Under the pieces are notes generated by a model. That model saw only the letters and a list, made by a program, of their open reading frames with translations, was not told the DNA's origin and did not search any database. Positions 4,377 to 39,424 of a stretch of DNA of 55,784 nt are shown here, piece by piece; the stretch's first letter is position 1; each line of letters begins with the position of its first letter. The translations under genes were made by a program, and so were the position numbers. Source of the stretch: Bacteroidales bacterium (GTDB lineage: Bacteria > Bacteroidota > Bacteroidia > Bacteroidales > UBA10428); NCBI GenBank assembly GCA_016938235.1, contig JAFGVA010000141.1, positions 1 to 55,784 on the forward strand. The letters are read 5' to 3'.

Positions 4377-6389
4377 TTATTCTGAGTCAAATTTTTCACC
4401 ATACTCCAGTTCGCGGGCAGCCTGTATTGTTATTTTCCGTCGATTATAATAGGGAACAATAAAGGCATCGCTGTATCCATAGGATTTTACTTTCTGCAAA
4501 GCATCGCGGGCCGCTTTCGAGCTTTTAAAGAGTCCAACATAATATTTAGTAAGGTTCTTGTCTTCAAGTATCTCAGCCGACAAAGGGCTCAGGCCTCCAA
4601 AAGCATCGAACGACAGGTCTTGAGAAAATGCTCCTAATTGAATTTTATATACAAGTCCCTGAGGCATTTCATTATTCCCGGGTATGGGCTTCTCTATCGA
4701 ATACGGGGAATTATCCAGTATGGTAAAATTATTCTCTACTCTTGATTCCTTAACTTCAATATTTATTTCCTCAAGGTTTTCTTCTTCTACCGGTAGCTGA
4801 ATGCTTGTTTTATAGGCAAATAGTTTAATTTTTCCTACACTCTTAACTGATTCAATATTTTCATTCTCCTGTGTTTCTGTTTCTTTACCCGAAGGTATTT
4901 CAGGTTCCGCTGCTGTTTCTGCAACAGGAGTATTGTCAGCCAACGAGGCTGTACCTTGCATTGTGAGATTGCCCGGATTCAAATTGTCTTCATTTTGCCT
5001 TATCCTATTTGCTTCGGCAAACAACTCGTCAGCAGTTTGCTGCGTTTCTTTCAATAAACTTTCATCTTTAGTAATATTGGCAATAAGTATTCGCCGGTTA
5101 TCAGCATTATTTTCAGCCAAAAGCTTATTTTTCTTTGAAATAATTTCAGCATTTAATGAGTCGCAGAAAAGTTGTTTATTCAAGGCTTGTTTTATGGTTA
5201 CTTCATATTCAGAGAAAACAATCTCACTTCGGGCGGGAGAAAGATTTTCAATAACAACCGGCACATTAAATTCTTCTGTTTTAACATTTAGTCCGGCAAG
5301 TTCTCTAACTTCATCTACCGATTTAGGGAAAAGAAAATCAGGAGATTCGGGAATTTCAACCTTGTAGGCAGTGAGCTTGCCATTTGCTTCCTTTCTGTTC
5401 GAAAGAAAAACAGCAGTTTTACCGGCAGTGTCGGGTACATATAAAAAATCATCAAAAGGCGAATTATAGGGGAACTCAAGTCTGCGCGGATTTTCAAAAG
5501 CGTCTGAACTTATATCGTATTTTGATGAGTAAATATCAAATCCACCCATACCGCCAGGTCTGTCAGATGCAAAATACAAAATGCTGCTGGCTTTATCAAA
5601 ATAGGGGTACTCTTCATCGGCTGCTGTATTTAATTCTTCAATAGCATCTGGCGCCGAATAGTCTATATCTGAAAGCTGCTTTACTACATACAAATCTTTT
5701 CCGGTACGCCTCGATGAACCGATTGAAGAAATATACAATTGATCTCCATGAGAAATTGAGGTGGGTAAATACATAACCCCCTGGTAATTTTCCTTTTTGT
5801 CATCCAAAATCATAAAAGATTCCGGCTTTGGAGCAAATCTTCCCGGAACATGCAAAGCATATATACTACCTAATTGATTTGACAAAATATTCTCGGTAGC
5901 AAGCACCTTTGCTTTACATGCCATAAGAGTTTCCTGACGAGCAGATTTTATTGATTCCTCCAATATTCCGGGCTTCAGTTTCTGGAAATCCTTTTTTGTA
6001 CCCAACACTTTATAATTCGCCAGCGCTAATTCCGCATCTTCAAACTGGTAATTTTTAAGATAAGCCTGCGAAAGATAATAATGTACATCTGTCGAATAAG
6101 TTTTTGAAGCAGCAAACCGCAAATATTGAATTGCACTTTCCAAATCGACATTGGAATGCAGATAACATCGGCCAAGGTAATAATTATAAGAAGGTTCCCT
6201 GGGATAAACCAAAAGCAAATCTTCGAATCCCTTTAATGCTTCGGAATAATTTTCTGAATTAAAAAATGCTATGGATTGTGCCTCTATTTCATCTTTTGAT
6301 AGTTCTTGTGATTTTAAAATCGTACTTTCCCCCAACAGGAAAAAAACCGCTACAATTTGAATTGTAAGTAATTGTTTTAAGCCTCTCAT
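4377..6389 (-). CDS. TPR / PD40 / SPOR-like envelope protein
   Basis: A secreted or periplasmic protein of 670 residues. The start is set at ATG 6389, which gives a signal peptide (MRGLKQLLTIQIVAVFFLL); the open frame extends 67 codons further but that part is unlike a protein N-terminus. Order: TPR repeats (about 30-120); a PD40/WD40-like beta-propeller part with ASDRPGGMGGFDIYSS (about 270-290); a long linker rich in Glu, Asn and Ser (about 380-570); and a C-terminal SPOR-like domain (YKIQLGAFS ... KYYVGLFKSSKAARDAL). SPOR domains bind peptidoglycan with denuded glycans; PD40/TPR proteins in this phylum often link outer-membrane machinery to the wall. The exact role is unknown. It may be the first gene of the clpS-nfeD-floA group. 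Confidence 0.82.
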   Translation of the reverse strand: MRGLKQLLTIQIVAVFFLLGESTILKSQELSKDEIEAQSIAFFNSENYSEALKGFEDLLLVYPREPSYNYYLGRCYLHSNVDLESAIQYLRFAASKTYSTDVHYYLSQAYLKNYQFEDAELALANYKVLGTKKDFQKLKPGILEESIKSARQETLMACKAKVLATENILSNQLGSIYALHVPGRFAPKPESFMILDDKKENYQGVMYLPTSISHGDQLYISSIGSSRRTGKDLYVVKQLSDIDYSAPDAIEELNTAADEEYPYFDKASSILYFASDRPGGMGGFDIYSSKYDISSDAFENPRRLEFPYNSPFDDFLYVPDTAGKTAVFLSNRKEANGKLTAYKVEIPESPDFLFPKSVDEVRELAGLNVKTEEFNVPVVIENLSPARSEIVFSEYEVTIKQALNKQLFCDSLNAEIISKKNKLLAENNADNRRILIANITKDESLLKETQQTADELFAEANRIRQNEDNLNPGNLTMQGTASLADNTPVAETAAEPEIPSGKETETQENENIESVKSVGKIKLFAYKTSIQLPVEEENLEEINIEVKESRVENNFTILDNSPYSIEKPIPGNNEMPQGLVYKIQLGAFSQDLSFDAFGGLSPLSAEILEDKNLTKYYVGLFKSSKAARDALQKVKSYGYSDAFIVPYYNRRKITIQAARELEYGEKFDSE

Positions 6390-6623
6390 AATTACCTGTT
6401 TTATATCGCCAAAATATAAGAATATTGTGGCTTGAAGTAAAAAAGAGTTATTCACAAGCGTTACTTTAAGAATTATTTTACCTTTGCCAACTGAATTAGC
6501 GAAATAATATTGAAGCCTGATAATTTGCAACAATTTAATTATCAATTTTTTATCGCTAATGTTTAGAAATACTATTTCTTTGAAATTCAAAATAAAATAT
6601 AAATAAATTTTAATTTTTTTAAT

Positions 6624-7340
6624 ATGAAAAACACATTTAAACTATTGATTGGACTGGCAATAACTGCTGGTTTCTCTGCTTGTACAAGTCAATCCGGAAA
6701 AGCTCCTCAACTTACAGACGATATTGATTCGGTTAGTTATGCTTTTGGTCTGTGGATTGCAAGTCAGCCAATGAATGGTCTTGGTGATAAAGAAATCATT
6801 GATCTTGATCTTGTTAAAAAAGGCATGATTGACGCTATTGAAGGAAATGATACCCTTATGAACAGAAATGCCGTTGAGAATATTCTTCGCTCGTATTCAC
6901 AAATTCAGATGGCTAAACAAGCCGAAAAAGATAAAGCCGAGCAAGATTCAAGAATTAAGGAAGGTGAAACTTTTCTGGAAGAAAACAAAGCCAAAAAGGG
7001 TGTAATGGTTACTGAAAGTGGTTTACAATACCGGGTAATTAAAGAGGGCGACGGTGCTACTCCTTTGGCAACAAATAAGGTTAAAGTGCATTACGAAGGC
7101 CGTCTTCTTAACGGAAAAGTATTTGACAGCTCAAAAGAAAATGGCACTCCGGCAGAATTTCGTCTGAACCAGGTAATTAAAGGCTGGACCGAAGGTTTAC
7201 AATTAATGAAAGAAGGTAGTATTTACGAACTTTACATACCATATAACTTAGCCTATGGTGAAAGAGGTGCTGGGGATGACATCAAACCTTTTTCTACTTT
7301 AATTTTCGAAGTTGAACTTATTGAAATTCTGGAACAATAA
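6624..7340 (+). CDS. FKBP-type peptidyl-prolyl isomerase lipoprotein
   Basis: 238 residues. A lipobox ending in AGFSAC puts the lipidated Cys at about residue 20. An N-terminal helical region (about 30-115, with K/E/Q-rich helix) resembles the Mip/FkpA dimerisation domain, and a full FKBP domain follows (about 125-236: [50 protein letters not shown]). It should speed prolyl isomerisation of proteins in the periplasm. The cyclophilin gene starts 2 bp after its stop and another FKBP follows, so this is a folding cluster. Start ATG 6624 gives the lipoprotein signal directly. Confidence 0.93.
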
Positions 7341-7342
7341 TA

Positions 7343-7798
7343 ATGAAAGCGCTAATTCATACCGCAAAAGGCCTGATGAAGGCTGAATTTTATGAGGATG
7401 ATGCACCAAACACTGTAGAAAATTTTGTTAAACTGGCAAAATCCGGCTATTACGATGGCTTAAGGTTTCACCGTGTAATTCCTGATTTTGTTATTCAGGG
7501 AGGCTGTCCTTATTCTAAGGATTCAGGCGATGCCAGAGTGGGTACCGGTGGTCCGGGTTATTCGATTGATTGTGAACTAGACGGAGATAAACAATATCAC
7601 GACAGAGGCGTATTATCGATGGCTCATGCCGGAAGAAATACCGGAGGATCACAATTCTTTATCTGTCATAGCCGCAACAACACCTCGCACCTCGACAGAC
7701 AACACACCTGCTTTGGAAAAGTTGTTGAAGGTCTTGATGTTATCGACGACATAAGAGCAGGCGACCTAATTAATAAAATAGAAATTTTAGAGGATTAA
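7343..7798 (+). CDS. Cyclophilin-type peptidyl-prolyl isomerase
   Basis: 151 residues, short bacterial cyclophilin without a signal peptide, so cytoplasmic. Catalytic-core motifs are visible: [13 protein letters not shown] (about 41-53), [27 protein letters not shown] (about 91-107) and [12 protein letters not shown] (about 116-127). The catalytic Arg lies in FHRV and the Q-F-F pocket is intact. It is translated immediately after the FKBP lipoprotein (2-bp gap), suggesting translational coupling although the two products work in different compartments. A strong terminator follows. Confidence 0.94.
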
Positions 7799-7821
7799 GT
7801 TTCTCAAATTGAAAAATACAC

Positions 7822-7856
7822 GAGGTAAGGCAGAAATTGCTTTACCTCTTTTTTTT
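7822..7856 (+). terminator. Terminator after the cyclophilin gene
   Basis: An 11-bp stem (GAGGTAAGGCA with TTGCTTTACCTC, one G-T pair) is followed by eight T. It separates the two-gene FKBP-cyclophilin unit from the third isomerase gene. Confidence 0.85.
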
Positions 7857-7876
7857 CTTAAAATTTCATAAGAGGG

Positions 7877-7906
7877 TTGTCTGAAGTAAAGTTTTGGATA
7901 CCTTTG
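7877..7906 (+). promoter_or_regulatory. Bacteroidota-type promoter for the second FKBP gene
   Basis: TTG (7877-7879), 19 bp, then TACCTTTG (7899-7906), fitting the phylum's -33 TTTG / -7 TAnnTTTG consensus. The -7 box lies 25 bp before the ATG, implying a short leader. It shows that this FKBP gene is transcribed separately from the pair upstream. Confidence 0.7.
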
Positions 7907-7931
7907 AGGGCTTACTAAACAACAAACAATC

Positions 7932-8633
7932 ATGATTAATAATTTAAGAATAATACTAACTTCAATTCTTGTAATAGTGGCGATCGGCCTTTTCGGACAA
8001 AACAAAAAAAAAGGATTGAAGCTTGAATCGGAATATGACACAGCAAGTTATATGCTGGGCGTTTATTTTGCAACCAGTTTTAAGGACCTTCCTGCAAAAA
8101 ATAACATGAATATTAAACTAATTCAAAGGGGGTTAACCGACAACCTTGAAGATACCCCTCAATTCACAATGGAAGAGGTTCAGACGTTTATGAATCAGTT
8201 TATGAAAAATCAACAGACTCTTGCTGATGAAGAAGCTAAATCAGAAGGCATAAAAGCAGAAAAAGAATTTCTTGATGCCAACAGGAAGAAAGAAGGAATA
8301 CATGAGACTGAAAGCGGACTACAGTATAGAATTATTAAAGAAGGAACAGGAATTTCTCCTGCTGAAACCGATAAAGTTGAAGTTCATTATACCGGTAAAC
8401 TTCTGGACGGAACCGTTTTCGACAGTTCAGTTGAAAGAGGAGAATCAATTGAATTTGGCTTAAACCAGGTTATTAAAGGCTGGACCGAAGGCGTTCAATT
8501 GATGAAAGAAGGTGCTGTTTATGAGTTTTATATACCCTATGATTTGGCCTATGGAAGTCGTAGTGCAGGAAATCTGATTAAGCCTTATTCAACTTTGGTT
8601 TTTGAAATTGAATTAATCAAAGTTATCGAATAA
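7932..8633 (+). CDS. FKBP-type peptidyl-prolyl isomerase, secreted
   Basis: 233 residues, a paralogue of the FKBP at 6624-7340: same layout of N-terminal helical domain and C-terminal FKBP domain ([50 protein letters not shown]). The N-terminus is a signal peptide (about 1-22, ending IGLFGQ) without a lipobox Cys, so this copy should be soluble in the periplasm rather than lipid-anchored. It has its own promoter. The pair probably arose by local duplication. Confidence 0.92.
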   Translation: MINNLRIILTSILVIVAIGLFGQNKKKGLKLESEYDTASYMLGVYFATSFKDLPAKNNMNIKLIQRGLTDNLEDTPQFTMEEVQTFMNQFMKNQQTLADEEAKSEGIKAEKEFLDANRKKEGIHETESGLQYRIIKEGTGISPAETDKVEVHYTGKLLDGTVFDSSVERGESIEFGLNQVIKGWTEGVQLMKEGAVYEFYIPYDLAYGSRSAGNLIKPYSTLVFEIELIKVIE

Positions 8634-8717
8634 AATTATATCCTAATTAACATGGCTTTTCGTCAGAAGACAAAAGACATGAGTTTGAAGTCCTCTGATT
8701 TAGAACGCCATATACAG

Positions 8718-8767
8718 ATTCCCGGATTTGGGTGAAACGATTTTTTAAACCTCGTAAATCCGGGAAT
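8718..8767. terminator. Inverted repeat, possible bidirectional terminator
   Basis: ATTCCCGGATTT and AAATCCGGGAAT form a perfect 12-bp inverted repeat with a 26-bp spacer, between the convergent FKBP and M64 peptidase genes. Only a weak T tract follows, so termination is inferred from position. Confidence 0.45.
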
Positions 8768-8776
8768 TTGTTTTAT

Positions 8777-10045
8777 CTATTCCGTAATAAAAAGTATCAT
8801 TTTTTCTATACTCCTTTCACATACAGGACAGAAGTTTCTCATAGCTGATGATTGCATTGCACAATTTCTGTAAGGGCGGTAAAAACCTTCGGCAACATAA
8901 TTTGCACCTTCAAACACGCCAACTGCATTATCATACAAAGATGTATCCGGGGTTGGGATGGGAACTGTATCGGGCACCATACTCATCCATTTTCTTTCAA
9001 AATCAACCAGGGTAGTAATGTTGGGTTGATAGGGTTCAGTGTTTAAATCTCCAAAATCCTCATACGCTACTTCCGAATTGAAATATTCATCTGCCAGTGA
9101 GGCAAATCCATGTCCAAATTCATGTAAAAACAGTAGCTCGGCATGATAATCATCGCTGGTAAAAATATTATAGTAATTATAGATGCCGCCACCACCATAT
9201 TTTGATGAATTAACTAGAACACAAACCTGATCTACAGGCACTGCATTCAGGTATTTATAAACCTTTCCAATATCAGGCAATGTAAGATATCGGTCGATGC
9301 CAAAAGTGCCAAAATGAGCATCTGCCAGGGTCTCAACCTCTAATCCTGTTGAAGGAATATCAACTCCCGTCTGAGGCGATGGTGCAAATACTGCCAGAAT
9401 ATTTATTTTGTCTTTGTAGTTTAAAAAAGGTTCCCACCCGAAAAGGTAATTCTTAAATCGCTCTACGTCTCTAAAAAATTTATCCTGCTCGTTCTGAGTA
9501 TATCCTTCAGCAAAAAACACAATGTCAACATTATTTTCAAAATTCCCCGATTTATGAATATCTCTGGCAGAAACGCCTTCCTGTAATATTGAATTGGCTA
9601 TCGATTCCGGTTCAAAATCTTTTTCAAAAACTTTGTGAAATCTATTTTGAGAATCCCGTTTTTCAATGCAAATTTTAAAATCTTTTCGAGGTTCAGGAAA
9701 CAGAATACAATCCGAAAATGTTTTTTCGTTTGTGTCCGCATCAGCTGTGGTCTGCCATTCTGAAAACAAATTACAATACCCACGTGAGTAAATAAGTTGA
9801 TTACTCTTTAGGTCGTATATTTTGAGAAAATACAAACCATACTGGAAAGTATCTATCAGGTTAACTTTTGACCCGCCCCAATACAAATCACGAACAATGC
9901 TTTTCTCTTCTATCTTCAAAGTACTTGCATCCCCGGTAATGGAGTACTCAAAGCGCAACCTGCTTTCCTTGAAAAATTTTTTATAGTTATATTTGATTGA
10001 ACAAGAAGGCAAAAGACTAATTAGAAAAAAGATAAGCAATCTCAT
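8777..10045 (-). CDS. M64 (IgA-type) metallopeptidase lipoprotein
   Basis: 422 residues. The start is placed at ATG 10045 rather than the longer frame: it gives a lipoprotein signal with lipobox LLPSC (Cys at about 15). The C-terminal half is a Peptidase_M64 domain with the zinc site HEFGHGFASLADEY (HExxH plus the downstream acidic residue), preceded by VDIVFFAEGYTQNEQDKF, the typical domain start. The N-terminal half is beta-rich and resembles the extra domain seen in Bacteroidota M64 proteins. M64 includes IgA-cleaving enzymes, but most members act on unknown substrates; a lipid-anchored, outward-facing protease is the safe statement. Confidence 0.88.
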   Translation of the reverse strand: MRLLIFFLISLLPSCSIKYNYKKFFKESRLRFEYSITGDASTLKIEEKSIVRDLYWGGSKVNLIDTFQYGLYFLKIYDLKSNQLIYSRGYCNLFSEWQTTADADTNEKTFSDCILFPEPRKDFKICIEKRDSQNRFHKVFEKDFEPESIANSILQEGVSARDIHKSGNFENNVDIVFFAEGYTQNEQDKFFRDVERFKNYLFGWEPFLNYKDKINILAVFAPSPQTGVDIPSTGLEVETLADAHFGTFGIDRYLTLPDIGKVYKYLNAVPVDQVCVLVNSSKYGGGGIYNYYNIFTSDDYHAELLFLHEFGHGFASLADEYFNSEVAYEDFGDLNTEPYQPNITTLVDFERKWMSMVPDTVPIPTPDTSLYDNAVGVFEGANYVAEGFYRPYRNCAMQSSAMRNFCPVCERSIEKMILFITE

Positions 10046-24379: not shown

Positions 24380-25933
24380 TTAGATTTTTATCCCGATAAT
24401 GCAGATATCATCAACCTGATCTTCGTTGCCTTTCCATTGCTCAAAAGTCGATTCAATTAATTTGTATTGCTTTTTCATTGGGAAATTTGCAATTTGGGAA
24501 AGCAAAGAATAAAATTGTTTTTTTGAATACTTTTTACAATCTGTTCCGCCAAACTGATCCTGAAAACCATCGGTAAACAAGTAAAAACAATCTCCGGGTT
24601 TAGTTGCTATCTTAACTGTTTCGAAGTATTTATTCTTCTGATACATATAAACGCCAATACTTTTTCTTGTGGGCTCAAACACTTTAATGCTGTTTTCACG
24701 CACCAAAAGCAAGGGTCGATTAGCCCCGGCATAATATATGGTATTTTCAGATTTATGATATGAAACAAGTACAATATCAATTCCCAGGGTATAGTTGTCT
24801 TTTTGTGTTTTAAAAGACTCCTTGAACTTGTTGTCGATAATCTGAAGCGCAGCACCTGGTTCATGATTATTTTGATTGCTCAAAACAAACTGGAATAATT
24901 CGTTACCCATAATACCCATAAATGCCCCCGGAACTCCATGACCCGAACTGTCTGCAACAGCAAGCGTAGTGGTATCGTCAAACTGATTATGCCAATAAAA
25001 ATCACCCGACACAATATCTTTCGGCTGGTAATAGATGAACCCATCTGAAAAAGATTTTAGCACACTTTCGCCCGAGGGAAGCAAAGCTCTTTGAATAATC
25101 TTGGCATACTCAATACTATCCGTAATTTCTTTGTTTTTCTCTGCTAGCAGCTTATTGGCTTGTTTTCGCTTTTTATTTATCAGGGCCAGAAAATAAACCA
25201 ATACAGAAACAACAAATAAAAAAGCTGCAGATATTAATATTATAATATGCTGATAATCTATTTTCTCACTTTGTTTGATAATCTCGTCGGTTTGCTGTTC
25301 AATAATTTCTTTTTGCCTTTCCGACTTTAATATTTCCTGTTCGAGCTGATAGCTTGTTGCCTGCAAAATTTTTTCCCAGTTCGATTCTGATAATACCCTG
25401 TTAGACGCATTTAAGAATTTATTGTCAATTTTACCTCCTTTACCCCAGATTGCATCAGGCTGCATTTCGAAATGAAGATTATTATTCTGATTAATAGCAA
25501 AATTCAACATAGAAGTACCGTACGGAAAATTCTCGGTGATAATTACATAAGGATAATCTCCCAAATTCTCGTCGATATCGCTAATTCTTATTTTGCTTTC
25601 ACCATTTACATAAAAAATATCGACCGGTTCGATAATGTTAGTTCGCCGGAAGTGAAAAACCCGAACTGGTTTATTCTGAATGTTTAATCCGGGACTTCTT
25701 GATTTAAGTGCTTTGTATATTTTATTGGTTGAAGTGTTTCTGCCATATATTCCTATTTTATAAAATTGAGATGTATCATTTAGGGGATAATAAATTTTGT
25801 TTGAGGCAAGTACGATAAAATCAACTTTTTTATCGATCAGTTCATCTTCATTCTGTGCTATCAGCGCTGATGCTGAAACACAAAAAATGGCTGTAAGAAT
25901 AAATTGTCGGAAAAATGTTTTTGGAATAACCAT
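24380..25933 (-). CDS. YfiR-domain PP2C (SpoIIE-type) Ser/Thr phosphatase
   Basis: 517 residues. Signal peptide (1-26), a periplasmic YfiR/DUF4154-like domain (about 35-190), a short coiled coil (about 195-225), one membrane helix (about 229-251), a linker, and a cytoplasmic SpoIIE PP2C domain (about 270-517). Metal-site Asps are intact: SGDFYW (D311), ADSSGHGVPGAFM (D328), FTDGFQDQ (D455) and QVDDICI (D508/D509). It should sense something in the periplasm and dephosphorylate a Ser/Thr protein inside. The downstream SiaC-like gene is the obvious substrate, in the manner of SiaA-SiaC, although SiaA uses a different sensor domain. Confidence 0.9.
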   Translation of the reverse strand: MVIPKTFFRQFILTAIFCVSASALIAQNEDELIDKKVDFIVLASNKIYYPLNDTSQFYKIGIYGRNTSTNKIYKALKSRSPGLNIQNKPVRVFHFRRTNIIEPVDIFYVNGESKIRISDIDENLGDYPYVIITENFPYGTSMLNFAINQNNNLHFEMQPDAIWGKGGKIDNKFLNASNRVLSESNWEKILQATSYQLEQEILKSERQKEIIEQQTDEIIKQSEKIDYQHIIILISAAFLFVVSVLVYFLALINKKRKQANKLLAEKNKEITDSIEYAKIIQRALLPSGESVLKSFSDGFIYYQPKDIVSGDFYWHNQFDDTTTLAVADSSGHGVPGAFMGIMGNELFQFVLSNQNNHEPGAALQIIDNKFKESFKTQKDNYTLGIDIVLVSYHKSENTIYYAGANRPLLLVRENSIKVFEPTRKSIGVYMYQKNKYFETVKIATKPGDCFYLFTDGFQDQFGGTDCKKYSKKQFYSLLSQIANFPMKKQYKLIESTFEQWKGNEDQVDDICIIGIKI

Positions 25934-32994: not shown

Positions 32995-33966
32995 ATGAGC
33001 CATTCCATTCGCATAGTATTCATGGGTACGCCAGACTTCGCTGTGGCTTCGTTAAAAGAGTTAATAAATAATAACATTAAGGTTGTTGGTATTATTACAG
33101 CCCCCGACAAACCCGCCGGAAGAGGAAAAAAATTAAAATTATCTCCCGTTAAGGAGTTTGCACTTGAAAACAATATCTCACCTATCCTTCAGCCTGCAAA
33201 CTTAAAATCACCCGAATTTCTGGATGAATTGAAAGCTCTTAATGCTGATTTGTTTGTTGTTGTTGCTTTCAGAATGCTCCCGGAAATAGTCTGGAGCATG
33301 CCTCGCTTAGGAACAATAAATCTGCATGCTTCTTTACTTCCCCAATACCGTGGGGCAGCGCCAATAAACTGGGCTATAATTAATGGCGAGAATAAAACCG
33401 GGGTTACCTGTTTCTTTATTGAAAAAGAAATTGATACCGGAAATATCATCAGTCAGGTAAGTATTGCAATTGAACAAAACGAGAATGCCGGTACTTTGCA
33501 TGATAAACTGATGATAATCGGGGCAGAAACTCTCGTTAAAACAGTTCAGACAATAGGAAACGGTTTCTTTGAAGCTATACCTCAAAATAAGCTGTCACTA
33601 AAAAAAGACCTTAAATCAGCTCCTAAGATATTTAAAGAAGATTGCCGGATAAACTGGAATCAAAACGTGAGAAATATTTATAATTTCATTCGCGGATTAA
33701 GCCCCTACCCTGCTGCATGGACCCAGTTATTTAATGCCGAAACAAATCAAATTTTAGATCTGAAAATTTTTGAAGCTGATTACGAGGAAGGATCTGCCTC
33801 AGCAAAAACCGGCAGTGTGTTTTATTCAGATAAGCAAATAAAAGTAAGCTGTAAAAATGGCAATATCATTGTAAAAGAGTTACAGACTGCAGGAAAAAAA
33901 CGAATGCCTGCCGATGCTTTTCTAAGAGGCTTTAACGAAACCAAGCAGTACACACGGGTATTATAA
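32995..33966 (+). CDS. fmt: Methionyl-tRNA formyltransferase
   Basis: 323 residues, the normal length. N-terminal formyltransferase domain with RIVFMGTPDFAV (about 6-17), INLHASLLPQYRGAAPINWA (catalytic Asn and His, about 106-125) and the catalytic Asp in KEIDTGNI; the C-terminal OB-like domain (about 208-323) contains IRGLSPYPAAW. It formylates initiator Met-tRNA using 10-formyl-THF. It is 7 bp downstream of ribBA and its stop overlaps the 3' end of the opposing glucosaminidase gene by 6 bp. Confidence 0.95.
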   Translation: MSHSIRIVFMGTPDFAVASLKELINNNIKVVGIITAPDKPAGRGKKLKLSPVKEFALENNISPILQPANLKSPEFLDELKALNADLFVVVAFRMLPEIVWSMPRLGTINLHASLLPQYRGAAPINWAIINGENKTGVTCFFIEKEIDTGNIISQVSIAIEQNENAGTLHDKLMIIGAETLVKTVQTIGNGFFEAIPQNKLSLKKDLKSAPKIFKEDCRINWNQNVRNIYNFIRGLSPYPAAWTQLFNAETNQILDLKIFEADYEEGSASAKTGSVFYSDKQIKVSCKNGNIIVKELQTAGKKRMPADAFLRGFNETKQYTRVL

Positions 33967-34986
33967 TTCAAACTCAATTATAAACTCATCATCCTGTACC
34001 GGTGCTTCTGTATCATTTTCTTTTTCTTCAGGTCTTTTCTCTTTAGGTTTATAAACCGTAACCACTTTTGTGCCTTTTCCTTTCCCTCTCAACAACAACT
34101 CAGCACCAACTTCTGGTTCCGCTTCTTCCGGAATATTGTTTCTTTCCCGGAGTTTCGATTCTTTTACTGCAAATTCCTGCGAAATACTGTTTAAAGTTTC
34201 TCCCTCCCTCACTACATAAGTTTTTTCTTTACCGTAGGTCCTGTTTCTTTTGGGTTGCAAATAAACAATATCTCCTGCATTTAGCCTGGTATTCGATGCC
34301 TGCTCGTTATACTTTGGAAGTTGCCAGCTAAACATATGCAATTCTTCTGCCAACTTTTCATAGCTATCGTTGCTGTCTGCCAAAATATATTTCACCCTGT
34401 TGTTGTATGCAATCTTTCGATTTTCCCCAATTTCAACATCAGAAATTCGAGAACCCGATTCAGTTTTTTTATCCTTTCTTTCGGCAAGTATCTGCTGATC
34501 GTAAATATAAAGTTCATTTTCTTCAATAACCGAAATAAGCGCCTTGGCATAGGTTGGACTAGTTGCATATCCTGCCTGTTTCAGACCTTTGGCCCAGCCT
34601 TTATAATCATCTGGTTTCAGCTCAAACAACGAGGAATACCTGCTTTTTGTTGTAAGAAAATCTGAGTGATCCTGATACGATTCTTCTACTGATTTATATT
34701 TTCTGAAACACTCATTTTTCGCATCATCGTCGTGTTTTATTTTAGGCCCCTCCCAGTCGTGGCATTTTATACCAAAATGATTATTAGCCTTTGTAGCTAA
34801 CCTGCTGTTCCCATCACCAGACTCAATTATGCCCTGAGCCAGAGTTATACTTGCGGGTATTCCGGTACGAACCATTTCATCCATGGCTATTTGCCTGTAC
34901 ATTTCTATGTATTCAGCTCTGGTTTGTTTCTGTCCAAAAGTGAAAACATGAGTTAATATGATGGCTATTAAACAACTGTATCTCAT
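33961..34986 (-). CDS. Glucosaminidase (GH73-type) with LysM domain
   Basis: 341 residues. A short signal peptide (about 1-19), a FlgJ/GH73-like glucosaminidase domain (about 22-160) with ITLAQGIIESGDGNSRLA carrying the catalytic Glu, and NNHFGIKCHDWEG; then linkers, a LysM-like segment (about 245-292: YVVREGETLNSISQEFAV) and an acidic tail. A region before it (about 200-240) looks like a degenerate second LysM. It should cleave glycan strands of peptidoglycan during wall turnover. It converges on fmt. Confidence 0.88.
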   Translation of the reverse strand: MRYSCLIAIILTHVFTFGQKQTRAEYIEMYRQIAMDEMVRTGIPASITLAQGIIESGDGNSRLATKANNHFGIKCHDWEGPKIKHDDDAKNECFRKYKSVEESYQDHSDFLTTKSRYSSLFELKPDDYKGWAKGLKQAGYATSPTYAKALISVIEENELYIYDQQILAERKDKKTESGSRISDVEIGENRKIAYNNRVKYILADSNDSYEKLAEELHMFSWQLPKYNEQASNTRLNAGDIVYLQPKRNRTYGKEKTYVVREGETLNSISQEFAVKESKLRERNNIPEEAEPEVGAELLLRGKGKGTKVVTVYKPKEKRPEEKENDTEAPVQDDEFIIEFEL

Positions 34987-35227
34987 GCTAAGTATATATT
35001 TGATAAAACTAACAGAAAAGTGTACCGGAATAGTATAACATCATCTATAATTTATCAACACTACCTCCCTTAAAACAATAGTTTCTGATGTATTGACATT
35101 AAAAGCCACCCTGCTTTTTCTTATCGGATTTATTTATCAATAAAATACTTTTTTTTATTATCTTAACAACTAGAATGTTTGTATAGTATATTTATACCAC
35201 AATTCGATTAAACCCAAATCAGGATAA

Positions 35228-37264
35228 ATGGCTAAATACCTTAGTTTTAAGTTAAAGGGCAAATTATTATTTATTTCCATAGTTACTACAATTATCATTT
35301 TCTTTCTGTTTAACACAGCTGTATATCTCGTAATCAGGAAACTCTCATTTGAACAGGCTGTTGAAACTTCTTCTACCTATGCCAACAAATATGCCATGTC
35401 TGCCAAAAATGTTTTTGACTACGATATGGGCTTAACAAAAGGTATTGCAAATCTGGCTCAATACAAAGGTAATTATAGCGAAAACAAACGCGATTCAATC
35501 TATACCGGAATGATGATTGAAATCTGCAAAATGAATCCGGAATACATATCTGTATGGTTGAGTATGGAACTCAAGTATTTTCAGGAAGGATACAAAACGA
35601 ATCACGGAAGAAAACTAATTGCAACTGTTCGCAAAGGCAGTGGTTTTAGTGTCGATGTATATCACAGAGACATGGAAAGTCCAAATATTGGAAGCGATTA
35701 TTACCAAATCAAGGCAGATAATGTCCCGGTTCTGGCAGAACCATATATCGATAGTGAATTAGGCAATTTTATGATTACCAGCCTGATTTATCCTATAAAA
35801 AACGAATCGGACTCTGCATTTGCCGGCGTTGGTGGCATTGATATTCCTTTAAGCAGACTGCAGGGAATGTTTGACCGAATGGATCTCCTTCCAGGTTCAA
35901 AAGCATTTATCATATCAAACACTGGAATCATCGTAAGCCACACAGATCAAAGATCCGTAGGTAAAAATATTACTGAACTCTATTCAGAATTAAATAACCA
36001 GTATAACCTGATTGATAAGATTAAAAGCGGAAAATACATTCAACCTTTCAAACAAAACATACTTGACGAAGATTATTTAACCAGTGTTATGCCCTTTAAG
36101 GTTGAGGAAACAATTGCTCCCTGGGCCGTATTCATCTCTATCCCGGAATCAATTATTTTCGGAAAATTTGAAAAAATCAGAACCAATTTTATAATATTTA
36201 GCTTTTTAGGGCTCTTGTTGATTTTAGGCGTTTTTGTTATGTTTTCAAACAACATAGAAAAGATAATTGAAAGAGTTACCCATGCTATAAACACCTTGGC
36301 TGATGGCAATTTAAATGTTAGCCAGGATTTTAAAGATAATTCTAATGGAAAACTTAGGAAACTTAACGACTCTTTAAAACTTCTTGTCTCAAAACTAAAA
36401 TATACTGCCAATTTTGCGCAGGAAATCGAGAAAGGAAATTTCGATGCCGATTTTGAACTCCGAAGTGAAGATGATCAGATGGGCAAAGCACTTATGAACA
36501 TGAGGCTTGGTTTGTTAATGGCTAAAAGTGATGAAGAAATGCGTCGCGAAAAAGATACCCGTTCTGCCTGGATATCTGACGGACTGGCACGATTTGCTGA
36601 TATACTCAGAAAAGACAGTACCGATTTCGAGGTTTTTTCTGTGAAACTTATTAGTGAGTTGGTAAAATATATCGATGCCCATGTTGGCGGCATTTATGTT
36701 GTTGATGATTTTACACCAGGCGAAATATTTATCAGGCTCACGGGCTCCTACGCATACGAGGGCGAAAAACTCCTGAAAAAAAGAATTGAGATGGAAGAAG
36801 GCCTGATTGGTGCCTGTATTAAAGAAGGATCAATTAAGCAAATTAATGATATACCGAAAGGATACCTGTCAATTTCATCCAGTTTAGGTGAAAGAATCCC
36901 GAAATCACTAATTATTCTTCCACTAAAAACAAAAACAGAAATAATAGGTGCATTGGAGTTGGCATCGCTCAAAGAATTTAACAGTTCCACTTTAGAGTTC
37001 CTTGAAAAGCTGGCTGAAAGTATTGCAGTTAGTTTCATTTCAATAAAAATGCAAAAGAAAACCGAAGAGTTACTGGAACAAAGTAAACTTCAGACAGAAC
37101 AAATGATGGCTCAGGAAGAAGAAATGAGGCTGAATATGGAAGAAATGATGTTGACCCAGGAAGAAATGGAACATAAAGAAGAACAATTGAAACTTATTCT
37201 TGAGGAACTTGAGATACAGGAAGAAGATATGAAAAAAAGAATCGAAAGTATTAAGAAACTTTAG
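35228..37264 (+). CDS. Cache-HAMP-GAF-coiled-coil membrane sensor without output domain
   Basis: 678 residues. Membrane helix (about 16-36), an extracytoplasmic dCache-type domain (about 40-315, with VGGIDIPLSRLQGMFD and GSKAFIISNTGIIVSHTD), a second helix (about 320-340), HAMP-like helices (about 341-440), a GAF domain (about 455-605) and a Glu/Met-rich coiled coil to the end. Similar proteins usually continue into a PAS, kinase or phosphatase domain; this one stops after the coiled coil. It can sense a small ligand outside and probably another inside, and pass a conformational signal in trans. The hydrogenase-like gene begins 27 bp later, so the two are probably one module. Confidence 0.85.
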   Translation: MAKYLSFKLKGKLLFISIVTTIIIFFLFNTAVYLVIRKLSFEQAVETSSTYANKYAMSAKNVFDYDMGLTKGIANLAQYKGNYSENKRDSIYTGMMIEICKMNPEYISVWLSMELKYFQEGYKTNHGRKLIATVRKGSGFSVDVYHRDMESPNIGSDYYQIKADNVPVLAEPYIDSELGNFMITSLIYPIKNESDSAFAGVGGIDIPLSRLQGMFDRMDLLPGSKAFIISNTGIIVSHTDQRSVGKNITELYSELNNQYNLIDKIKSGKYIQPFKQNILDEDYLTSVMPFKVEETIAPWAVFISIPESIIFGKFEKIRTNFIIFSFLGLLLILGVFVMFSNNIEKIIERVTHAINTLADGNLNVSQDFKDNSNGKLRKLNDSLKLLVSKLKYTANFAQEIEKGNFDADFELRSEDDQMGKALMNMRLGLLMAKSDEEMRREKDTRSAWISDGLARFADILRKDSTDFEVFSVKLISELVKYIDAHVGGIYVVDDFTPGEIFIRLTGSYAYEGEKLLKKRIEMEEGLIGACIKEGSIKQINDIPKGYLSISSSLGERIPKSLIILPLKTKTEIIGALELASLKEFNSSTLEFLEKLAESIAVSFISIKMQKKTEELLEQSKLQTEQMMAQEEEMRLNMEEMMLTQEEMEHKEEQLKLILEELEIQEEDMKKRIESIKKL

Positions 37265-37291
37265 ATTAAATCGCCGTTAAACAGATTTGAG

Positions 37292-38713
37292 ATGAAATTG
37301 TCCAGAATTTTAACTATTGATGAAGATAAATGTGTGAACTGCCATCAATGCATTGCTGTTTGTTCAACAAAATTTGCAAATAATGGCTCAGGAGATTCTG
37401 TTTTCATAAACGATGACTTATGCATTGGTTGTGGAGAATGTATAAAGGCATGCACGCATAATGCCCGTATTCCAATTGACGACTTTGAACAAGCAATGGA
37501 AAGTCTCAAAAAGAAAGAAAATATTGTTGCCATAGTTGCTCCTGCTGCAGCTTCAAATTTTCCGGGGAAATACCTCCAGTTAAACGGATGGCTCAAATCA
37601 ATTGGAGTAAAAGCTGTTTTCGATGTAAGTTTTGGTGCCGAACTTACCATTAAGTCATACATTAATCATATTCAAAAAAATAATCCTAAGACTGTTATTG
37701 CCCAACCTTGTCCGGCACTGGTAACCTATATTGAGGTATACCGACCGGAACTTTTACCCTACCTGGCTCCGGCTGACAGTCCCATGATGCATACAGTTAA
37801 AATGATCATGGAATATTACCCAAAATATAAAGACCATAAAGTTCTGGTTGTATCACCCTGCATAGCTAAGAAAAGAGAATTTGATGATGTCGGATTAGTA
37901 GATTTTAATCTTACAATGAGAAGTCTTGAAAATTATTTCGAACAGGAAAAAATTGATCTGGCCAGTTTTGAGAAAGTTGAATTTGATAACGACCCCGCAG
38001 AACGGGCTGTTCTGTTTTCTACTCCCGGTGGTTTATTAAGCACAGCTGAACGTGATGTAAGCAGCATCAGAAATGTTACCCGTAAAATTGAAGGCCCTCA
38101 TACAGTTTATCGTTATCTCGATTTGCTGAAAGAACAAATTGATAAGGGTAGGGCTCCTTTACTAATTGATTGCCTGAACTGCGAAAACGGATGTAACGGA
38201 GGTACCGGAACCACCATGCAGGATACTTCTGCCGATGAACTGGAATATCTCATCAACGAACGCAGAAAAGATATGCAGTCCAGGTATAAGTCTGAAGATA
38301 ATAACGAAGAATCGCTCAATAAAATTCAGGATACTGTTTCAAAATACTGGAAAGAATCTCTCTACATCAGGAAATATCAAAACAAGCATAAACTTTTTAC
38401 AAATAATGTGAAAACACCTGATAAAGAAGAACTACAAGAGATATATGAATCGATGCACAAATACAGCGATGATGATATGTATAATTGTGCAAGTTGCGGA
38501 TACAACTCTTGCGAAATGATGGCTATAGCTATTTTTAACGGGTATAATAAACCGGAAAACTGCCACCACTTCCTGGCAAATGAAAACGAAGAAAAAACAA
38601 AAGACCTTCGGGAAAAGAACCTTCAGATTCAGAAACAAAAAAACGAATTAATCGAACAATCAGAAAGTCTGCTTGAATTTATCGGTAAAATAAGAGATTA
38701 TGCTAAAAAATAG
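37292..38713 (+). CDS. Sensory-type [FeFe]-hydrogenase-like protein
   Basis: 473 residues. Two ferredoxin [4Fe-4S] motifs (Cys14/17/20/24 and Cys44/47/50/54) precede an [FeFe]-hydrogenase H-cluster domain (about 78-325). The four H-cluster Cys are kept: Cys140 (QPCPALV), Cys190 (SPCIAKK), Cys297 and Cys301 (CENGCNGG). The usual TSCCP loop is altered so that Pro139 replaces the proton-relay Cys, and Ser replaces Met before the second Cys. A further four-Cys motif (C399, C402, C407, C424; NCASCGYNSC) and a C-terminal coiled coil (about 432-465) follow. These are traits of HydS-type putative sensory hydrogenases rather than H2-producing enzymes. No maturases (HydE/F/G) are in the window. Confidence 0.87.
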   Translation: MKLSRILTIDEDKCVNCHQCIAVCSTKFANNGSGDSVFINDDLCIGCGECIKACTHNARIPIDDFEQAMESLKKKENIVAIVAPAAASNFPGKYLQLNGWLKSIGVKAVFDVSFGAELTIKSYINHIQKNNPKTVIAQPCPALVTYIEVYRPELLPYLAPADSPMMHTVKMIMEYYPKYKDHKVLVVSPCIAKKREFDDVGLVDFNLTMRSLENYFEQEKIDLASFEKVEFDNDPAERAVLFSTPGGLLSTAERDVSSIRNVTRKIEGPHTVYRYLDLLKEQIDKGRAPLLIDCLNCENGCNGGTGTTMQDTSADELEYLINERRKDMQSRYKSEDNNEESLNKIQDTVSKYWKESLYIRKYQNKHKLFTNNVKTPDKEELQEIYESMHKYSDDDMYNCASCGYNSCEMMAIAIFNGYNKPENCHHFLANENEEKTKDLREKNLQIQKQKNELIEQSESLLEFIGKIRDYAKK

Positions 38714-38737: not shown

Positions 38738-39424
38738 TTATTTTACTGTCAGGTTCGACCATAAAGGCTCTTCCTTGGGAGTTTTTGCCACAATTGAAAT
38801 TTGTTCTTTACTAACCGGATGCGTAAATTCTATTTTGTAGGCATGTAATGCTATTCCGCCGTAGTTGTTTGAACGTGGATAACCATACTTTAAATCACCT
38901 TTAATAGGGCATCCCATCTGAGCTAATTGAGCGCGAATCTGATGATGTCTGCCTGTTTTTAAATTAACTTCGAGCTGATAAAACGATTCCGTTCTTCCTT
39001 TAAGAGTATATTCAAGCTCAGCCCGCTTAGAATCTTTTACCTGCTTATCATAACAATATGACTTATTCTGTTCCGAAATCTTTTTCATATAATGAACCAG
39101 GGTTCCACTGTCGTTCTGAGGCAATTCTTTAACAAGTGCCCAATAAGTTTTTTTTACTTTATTTTCGCGGAACATTTCGTTTAGCCTGCTGAGAGCCTTA
39201 CTTGTACGGGCAAATAAAACTACTCCGCTTACAGGTCGGTCTAAACGATGCACAACTCCCAAAAAAACATCGCCTGGTTTATTGTGCTTTTTCTTAATAT
39301 ATTTCTTTACTCTGTCATCAAGAGATTCATCACCTGTTATATCACCCTGAACCAGGTCATGATTACCTTTATTTATAGCAATTATGTGGTTGTCTTCGTA
39401 GAGAACTTCAAGCTTGTTTTGCAT
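38738..39424 (-). CDS. RluA-family pseudouridine synthase
   Basis: 228 residues without an S4 domain. The catalytic motif HRLDRPVSG (Asp at about 62) and the C-terminal LKTGRHHQIRAQLAQMGCPI (about 154-173) are characteristic. Such short RluA-type enzymes modify rRNA or tRNA uridines; the exact target (for example RluC-, TruC- or RluA-like) cannot be assigned. Its stop faces the hydrogenase-like gene with 24 bp between, and panB is 21 bp upstream on the same strand, so they may share a transcript. Confidence 0.9.
   Translation of the reverse strand: MQNKLEVLYEDNHIIAINKGNHDLVQGDITGDESLDDRVKKYIKKKHNKPGDVFLGVVHRLDRPVSGVVLFARTSKALSRLNEMFRENKVKKTYWALVKELPQNDSGTLVHYMKKISEQNKSYCYDKQVKDSKRAELEYTLKGRTESFYQLEVNLKTGRHHQIRAQLAQMGCPIKGDLKYGYPRSNNYGGIALHAYKIEFTHPVSKEQISIVAKTPKEEPLWSNLTVK

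Follow-up and report, generated by a model that had tools for sequence, protein, structure and literature searches.

The window analysed here is the whole 55,784-nt stretch of contig JAFGVA010000141.1 (positions 1-55,784, forward strand) in assembly GCA_016938235.1 of a Bacteroidales bacterium (UBA10428). Two open reading frames, separated by a gap of 27 bp, encode a membrane sensor of 678 amino acids and a stand-alone sensory-type [FeFe]-hydrogenase (HydS) of 473 amino acids (Table 1). Since both flanking genes (33961-34986 and 38738-39424) lie on the opposite strand, the sensor and HydS form a two-gene unit. Promoters of Bacteroidota follow the pattern TTTG-N17-24-TAnnTTTG, for which no match was found in the gap at 34987-35227; the window in total holds 8 matches, with 6.0 expected. 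The first-pass annotation had described a Cache-HAMP-GAF sensor with a bare coiled coil, followed after this short gap by a HydS with a C-terminal coil, and this description was confirmed. It had also stated that neither protein has an output domain; Pfam found none, and both structure models end in a helix.

Table 1. Features of the sensor-HydS unit, in coordinates of the window.
Feature	Position	Strand	Basis or remark
Membrane sensor gene, 678 aa	35228..37264	+	TM-dCache-TM-(degenerate HAMP)-GAF-coiled coil; output domain not found
Extracytoplasmic dCache-type ligand region, residues 37-247	35336..35968	+	PDB 3lib match; Pfam dCache_1 below cut-off
GAF domain, residues 465-601	36620..37030	+	GAF_2 45.9 bits
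Sensor C-terminal helix / coiled coil, residues 586-677	36983..37258	+	AlphaFold2 model; heptad test
Tail of the sensor (residues 647-676), possible docking site for HydS	37166..37255	+	Tail profile; PAS-for-tail comparison
Stand-alone sensory-type [FeFe]-hydrogenase (HydS), 473 aa	37292..38713	+	Domains, cluster ligands, model
Two [4Fe-4S] ferredoxin motifs, C14,17,20,24 and C44,47,50,54	37313..37465	+	Pfam, alignment
H-cluster domain; C140, C190, C297, C301, K193 kept	37520..38203	+	Pfam, alignment
C-terminal [4Fe-4S] motif Cx2Cx4Cx16C, C399, C402, C407, C424	38480..38566	+	PF04060; motif as in the available text of PMC8163306
Terminal helix of HydS, 48 residues (425-472), possible partner of the sensor coil	38564..38707	+	Helix profile, heptad test, model

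In the sensor, the Pfam scores of GAF_2 and GAF (32.0 bits) are both above their cut-offs; dCache_1, at 38.4 bits, stays below its cut-off of 45, and HAMP, at 12.6 bits, below its cut-off of 25. Although dCache_1 misses its cut-off, the solved structures 3lib and 3li8 match the extracytoplasmic part with E-values of 3e-12 and 1e-10, and by the 3lib match this part has the double Cache fold of dCache receptors. Downstream of the GAF domain no output domain was found with Pfam. The signalling hairpin of chemoreceptors (PF00015) and the HisKA/HATPase_c domains of sensor histidine kinases are absent by Pfam, which places the protein in neither class. The AlphaFold2 model (mean pLDDT 77.3) has one terminal helix, with a pLDDT of 50-60 at its end. 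The heptad periodicity of the C-termini exceeded that of shuffled sequences in all seven sensor-HydS pairs described below, both for the sensors (p 0.0002-0.014) and for HydS (p 0.026-0.047). A bare coil as a mark of pairing with HydS was rejected because a 550-aa GAF-coil protein of the same genome, unlinked to HydS, also ends bare.

HydS contains two 4Fe-4S motifs, the H-cluster domain (Fe_hyd_lg_C, 124.5 bits) and an FeS domain (PF04060, 27.3 bits) according to Pfam. The cysteine ligands of the H-cluster are present in the alignment together with K193, which we take to be the CN-binding lysine of the H-cluster. Compared with CpI, C299 is replaced by P139, M353 by S188 and M497 by L295, and the loss of the proton path (E279/E282) and of C299 is typical of sensory-type enzymes, as is the C-terminal cluster motif. 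A Met-Glu-Glu segment kept in two canonical enzymes of the same genome is missing from the aligned stretch of HydS. This genome also encodes the maturase HydG and two further proteins to which the H-cluster family model gives scores of 316 and 323 bits. The C-terminal PAS domain of group C (M2f) is not found in HydS by Pfam, and the model (mean pLDDT 92.4) contains only helix after residue 425. No kinase, chemoreceptor or phosphatase, the linkages by which HydDB defines C1, C2 and C3, is fused to HydS or present in the two-gene unit. Serine at M353 and leucine at M497 are the residues printed for TamHydS in the available part of PMC8163306, and the sensory role of HydS-type enzymes is termed putative in that of PMC8924675.

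The sensor-HydS pair is a conserved module in the close HydS family. A GAF-coil sensor immediately precedes 7/7 intact stand-alone HydS (gaps of -1 to 297 bp), compared with 0/77 output-fused HydS that have an upstream ORF in view (85 fused HydS in total), 45 of the 77 being co-directional with it. If all HydS without a fused output are counted, the proportion is 7/9, the two exceptions being chemoreceptor fusions interrupted by a stop or frameshift. Fisher's test gives p 6.7e-9 for 7/9 against 0/77 with relatedness ignored, and the seven pairs represent about five lineages. This count set aside 17 rows, namely fragments, contig-cut entries, scores below 80 bits, canonical enzymes and L221, a low-scoring, more distant HydS that also stands alone in the window's genome and has no GAF-coil sensor upstream. 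The idea of a module, which the first-pass annotation had made dependent on homologues of the two genes being neighbours, thus passed this comparison. Neighbours were read for selected loci, which include 80 kept from a set of 149 related loci; the matches outside this selection have open frames of 755-1355 aa. Among these 80 loci, no fusion of HydS to a GAF-coil sensor was seen. A genome of the same genus (G042) yielded only a chemoreceptor-type HydS. The relatives are 40-58% identical over the aligned HydS part, and 13 of the 15 fused ones scanned by Pfam carry MCPsignal (nine), PAS-HisKA-HATPase (two) or PAS-SpoIIE (two); one more, cut by a contig end, shows PAS only, nothing was found in the last, and the remaining fused HydS were classed by length alone. 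No earlier description of the pair was found in open PMC full text, the subscription literature being mostly outside this search.

The paired sensors as one lineage were rejected, as a one-clade constraint was worse by 116.6 lnL units (p-AU 0.0004), in a tree with long branches and unsettled bootstrap in which the tested group was chosen in the light of a first tree and the long-branch sequences L142, L148, L173 and L175-L178 were left out. Therefore, different sensors sit beside similar HydS. The N-terminal inputs of the HydS-adjacent sensors also differ, being dCache, Cache_3-Cache_2 or a region in which no Cache was found. For the paired HydS, a single clade was not rejected in the tree of 52 rows (1.49 lnL units worse, p-AU 0.465); it appeared in 2% of the bootstrap trees there and in 31% in another tree of 59 out of 97 rows, with the Syntrophomonas group thinned. 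The kinase-fused HydS L218 joins the group of the window HydS in the 52-row tree.

A comparison within operons points to the part of the sensor that could contact HydS. In L058, L059 and L060, the HydS-adjacent sensor and its operon neighbour are 83-98% identical in the GAF domain and 93-98% in the coil, but only 12-26% after the coil, where the PAS domain gives way to a tail of about 30 amino acids. A profile of the sensor tails ranked 5/7 tails first and in place (those of the window, L058-L060 and L214); the best match in L041 was elsewhere in the coil, and the tail of L040 ranked 55th. With a leave-one-out profile of the HydS C-terminal helix, searched against about 1,250 proteins, a paired HydS or the close group L058-L060 ranked first in 7/7 cases, with L214 ahead only narrowly (13.8 vs 13.4 bits). 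The leading candidates for docking elements are this tail of the sensor and the C-terminal helix of HydS. The earlier proposal of a contact between both C-terminal coils is strengthened, but not proved, by the swap of PAS for tail and by the shared helix. Since the paired HydS are mutually related, the shared helix may instead reflect inheritance.

The genes for output near the pairs of relatives vary and include a hybrid kinase, CheR/CheB and a cyclase. The earlier expectation that the output enzyme is encoded elsewhere fits the window, where no output is linked, but the corresponding operon of L058 and L059 begins with a hybrid kinase (Pfam scan of the L058 copy). In the genome of L060, the probable head of the array lies on another contig (L155) and shows no kinase. 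An orthologue of the relatives' dCache_2 hybrid kinase did not turn up in the window's genome among the 150 of 221 candidates scored; the 93 matches of the hybrid-kinase search fell nearly all on the kinase and receiver parts, with one weak match to input residues 236-381. The YfiR-PP2C protein at 24380-25933, proposed earlier as a possible output, is unsupported, as it has no GAF domain and no link to the pair was found. Better unlinked candidates are the GAF-coil proteins on two other contigs of this genome, where related modules lie in operons with CheR/CheB and PP2C (C80) and with CheW/CheR/CheB and kinases (C17). Methylation of the coil by CheR/CheB is only suggested, by neighbouring genes.

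The unit is probably a trans-acting H2/redox input to a coil-based membrane receptor. The Cache domain would sense an extracytoplasmic ligand, and its signal would run via the HAMP-like and GAF segments into the long cytoplasmic coiled coil. H2, which we infer to be the ligand of HydS, would bind at the H-cluster without the usual proton path, and the state of HydS would pass via the C-terminal 4Fe-4S domain to the long C-terminal helix. By physical contact, this helix would dock on the bare coil tail of the sensor in place of the absent output domain, so that both inputs may merge in the sensor coil; the output enzyme reading them there would differ by lineage. In relatives of HydS, a chemoreceptor, kinase or phosphatase part follows at the position of this helix in the same chain, so signalling by the window HydS most likely runs in trans, via the coil of the sensor. 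The C-terminal cluster of TamHydS is not reduced by H2 according to the available text of PMC13104023, which counts against the route from cluster to helix. A broader reading, which we put forward tentatively, is that HydS may be a portable co-receptor for H2: the C-terminal helix of a single HydS lineage would dock on a short tail that several distinct membrane sensors have acquired instead of PAS, making dual ligand and H2 coincidence sensors with exchangeable outputs.

Alternatively, the sensor and HydS could be co-expressed and functionally linked but not docked, each signalling independently through its own homodimeric coil to the same kinase, phosphatase or chemosensory complex. Chemoreceptors and PAS/GAF sensors mostly function as homodimers, siblings of the sensor in relatives are encoded in operons that also contain a hybrid kinase, and the GAF-coil proteins of this genome have CheR/CheB, CheW, kinases and PP2C as neighbours. 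However, independent feeding needs no exchange of PAS for a tail in the HydS-adjacent sensor, and this explanation is considered unlikely.

The loss of the proton-path residues and C299, the fusion of relatives to signalling domains and the presence of two other H-cluster family proteins in the genome make it very improbable that HydS functions as a slow hydrogenase in metabolism or electron balancing, co-transcribed by chance and with a coil for plain dimerisation, even though it retains intact ferredoxin motifs and H-cluster ligands and sensory-type enzymes do turn over H2 slowly, as stated in the available parts of PMC8163306 and PMC10055695. The least probable explanation is a functionless remnant of a larger operon of the L058/L059 type that lost its kinase and sibling sensors. 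The longer kinase-led operon of relatives does end in the same two genes, and the lack of a kinase orthologue among the 150 candidates scored would agree with such a loss. Nevertheless, both frames are open and of full length, the cluster ligands have been kept, L040, L041 and L214 carry the pair in other settings, and the sensor of the window falls outside the group formed by sensors of the kinase-led operon.

Sensory [FeFe]-hydrogenases are known from spectroscopy. The pair offers a concrete candidate partner for HydS, a candidate interface of about 30 and 48 residues, and PAS-bearing siblings that are expected not to bind HydS, which makes the question of which protein receives the HydS signal directly testable. 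If HydS acts as a trans-acting input to the sensor, bacteria have a means of integrating an external ligand with the H2 or redox state in a single receptor.

In kinase-led operons (L138/L058, L141), Cache-HAMP-GAF-coil-PAS sensors share the TM-Cache-TM-HAMP-GAF-coil build of the HydS-adjacent sensors but end in PAS instead of a bare coil tail. HoxJ is the kinase partner of the regulatory [NiFe]-hydrogenase. There, as proposed for the pair, a hydrogenase sensor signals in trans to a separate protein with a PAS-like domain, whereas the metal site is unrelated and the partner is a kinase instead of a membrane receptor without output; this hydrogenase and its HoxJ subunit are named in the available text of PMC8163306. 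TamHydS of Thermoanaerobacter mathranii (group D, M2e) resembles the window HydS in its two N-terminal [4Fe-4S] clusters, H-domain, C-terminal Cx2Cx4Cx16C motif and lack of PAS, as far as described in the available parts of PMC8163306 and PMC13104023. It also shares the changes of M353 to serine and M497 to leucine and the lost proton-path residues, in a comparison by features, the trees being built without TamHydS and TmHydS references. However, the gene for TamHydS is reported to precede those of a heterotrimeric group A hydrogenase and to have a histidine-kinase-like ATPase and an AraC regulator as its flanking genes, whereas the window HydS stands alone with a membrane sensor. Group C enzymes (TmHydS; in HydDB C1 kinase-linked, C2 chemotactic and C3 phosphatase-linked) have the same core layout, going by the available text of PMC5037454 and PMC10055695. 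In contrast to them, the window HydS has no fused PAS or output domain and lies beside a separate membrane sensor of the Cache-GAF-coil type. This linkage is absent from C1-C3 as printed in the HydDB table (PMC5037454, PMC10055695).

The pairing of a stand-alone sensory-type [FeFe]-hydrogenase (HydS), which carries no fused output domain, with a GAF-coil sensor recurs beyond the window. HydS relatives were collected at order level (18 of 198 genomes pass E<=1e-60, and with the HydS of L058, a paired relative, as query 27 of 392 pass E<=1e-100), phylum level (6 of 395) and class level (2 of 395), all counts including the window's own genome, and 80 of 149 loci were kept from a named genome collection. 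Counting identical proteins once, 106 loci were examined and 17 rows set aside, giving nine HydS without and 85 with a fused output. Immediately upstream, 7/9 unfused HydS have a GAF-coil sensor, versus 0/77 fused ones with an upstream ORF in view, this ORF being co-directional in 45 of the 77 (Fisher p 6.7e-9, relatedness ignored; the seven paired loci represent about five lineages). The first-pass annotation had made its two-gene module depend on such neighbourhood in related genomes, and there the association held. The two unfused HydS that lack such a sensor (L072 and L083) are broken chemoreceptor fusions, interrupted by a stop or frameshift. L214 has the widest gap, 297 bp; in the other six pairs the genes are -1 to 33 bp apart. 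L221, a distant stand-alone HydS of the own genome and one of the rows set aside, has no GAF-coil sensor directly upstream; its neighbours are presumably small ATPase-like and DRTGG-like genes. On the same contig, the HydS-like protein L226 aligns with 0/4 H-cluster cysteines and is encoded divergently from a gene resembling Rex. It reads as an H-cluster-less relative and may be solely a redox sensor.

In the window, the unit is flanked on either side by genes on the opposite strand. The sensor, originally read as Cache-HAMP-GAF, has two transmembrane stretches (read from sequence) and a dCache-type outside domain (top match PDB 3lib, E 3e-12). It also has a GAF domain and a C-terminal helix of ~92 residues, the end of which is modelled with low confidence; dCache_1 and a degenerate HAMP (12.6 bits) score below the Pfam cut-offs. 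The H-cluster protein with a C-terminal coil noted just behind it is indeed a HydS, predicted at a mean pLDDT of 92.4; Foldseek matches the model to experimental [FeFe]-hydrogenase structures with E values as low as 1.8e-18. Two ferredoxin-type clusters, the H-domain and a C-terminal 4Fe-4S domain precede a final helix (425-472).

Coordinates of the pair and of related loci
Feature	Position	Strand	Remarks
Sensor gene	35228-37264	+	co-directional with HydS gene
HydS gene	37292-38713	+	27 bp after sensor gene
Kinase-led array, Cache-GAF-coil-PAS sensors	L138:12014-17977, L058:1-9392	+	YgjP-like peptidase gene separates kinase from sensors
C80 operon L219	5897-13754	+	CheR, GAF-coil-PAS protein, CheR, CheB, GAF protein, GAF-PAS-PP2C
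L150 GAF-coil protein, 550 aa	locus 6197-9150		own contig C211; bare C-terminal coil, after aminotransferase gene
L221 stand-alone HydS, second in own genome	11464-12810	+	own contig C204; upstream of hydrogenase cluster
L226 PAS-bearing HydS-like protein	6711-8567	-	own contig C204

In the paired loci L058, L059 and L060, the HydS-adjacent sensor is 83-98% identical to the preceding sensor in the GAF domain, 93-98% in the coil and 53-59% in the Cache part. High identity ends at an ATQEE motif, beyond which it falls to 12-26%: the preceding sensor continues into a PAS domain (L058 by Pfam; L059 and L060 by alignment), whereas in the HydS-adjacent sensor a tail of ~30 residues, 60-72% identical across the operons, follows the motif. 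In a tail profile search, the tails of the window, L058-L060 and L214 rank first in place; the top match of L041 lies elsewhere in the coil, and the L040 tail ranks 55th. With leave-one-out profiles of the HydS C-terminal helix, the top rank goes each time to the HydS left out or to its close group (for L214 only narrowly); this is weaker evidence for docking because these HydS are related.

The sensor input beside similar HydS is dCache in the window and L058 and Cache_3-Cache_2 in L040; no Cache domain was found in the L041 and L214 sensors. Constraining the seven sensors to a single clade lowers the log-likelihood by 116.6 units (p-AU 0.0004; long branches, bootstrap unsettled), versus 1.49 units (p-AU 0.465) for the seven HydS, so HydS may be one lineage whose sensor body was exchanged. 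This HydS clade occurs in only 2% of bootstrap trees, and the window group also takes in L218, a kinase-fused HydS.

Among 15 fused relatives scanned, nine carry an MCP signalling domain, including the own-genome paralogue on contig C234, two PAS-HisKA-HATPase (one with receivers and Hpt), two PAS-SpoIIE and one PAS only; in L068 nothing was recognised. Stand-alone HydS have the helix alone where fused relatives have output parts. On the simplest reading, HydS would have exchanged its cis output for a partner in trans, namely the adjoining sensor's bare coil. HydS would take in H2 or redox state and the Cache domain an outside ligand, and we infer that both signals merge in the sensor coil.

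The output partner is not fixed across loci. In L058 and L059, a hybrid kinase (dCache_2-PAS-HisKA-HATPase-REC in L058) and a small gene (YgjP-like in L058) precede three PAS-type sensors, followed by the bare-coil sensor and HydS. The L060 contig stops within the array, and L155, on another contig of that genome, is an apparent array head without the kinase. L141 has the kinase-led array of L058 and L059 without HydS. Adjoining sensors in the L138/L058 array appear partly homogenised, as by gene conversion. CheR and CheB follow the L040 pair, a Y_Y_Y-type kinase the L041 pair and a class III cyclase the L214 pair; the window's two-gene unit contains no output gene. Related-coil proteins occur in the own genome with CheR/CheB and GAF-PAS-PP2C (C80) and with CheW, CheR, CheB and kinases (C17), and these operons are candidates only. 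The C80 genes are chemosensory-like, with the phosphatase last and no MCP among them. The YfiR-PP2C protein (24380-25933), initially suggested as a possible but unlinked output, was rejected, as it shows no comparable feature. In L151-L153, the counterpart of the L150 protein is preceded by a gene (388-398 aa) comparable in length to the aminotransferase gene of L150.

No earlier account of the sensor-HydS pair was found in open-access PMC full text. The putative sensors C1-C3 of HydDB are described as kinase-linked, chemotactic and phosphatase-linked (PMC5037454, PMC10055695), and the window pair matches none of these linkages as described there. Aligned with two canonical-type hydrogenases of its own genome, one of which (L001, contig C17) has the L1 motif TSCSPGW, in which Ser aligns with the CpI ligand C300, the window HydS retains the H-cluster ligands C140, C190, C297 and C301 and lysine K193. 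In CpI numbering, proton-relay C299 is replaced by Pro139, M353 by Ser188 and M497 by Leu295; the proton path has lost its Glu segment, and the C-terminal motif is exactly Cx2Cx4Cx16C. In the published descriptions, C299 and the proton path are lost in both sensory subclasses, Pro occupies the C299 position in ~10% of sensory sequences, and Ser at M353 with Leu at M497 is given for the group D enzyme TamHydS (PMC8163306, PMC10055695). The window HydS therefore resembles group D, as described there, in layout and residues, and the gene setting given for TamHydS resembles that of L221.
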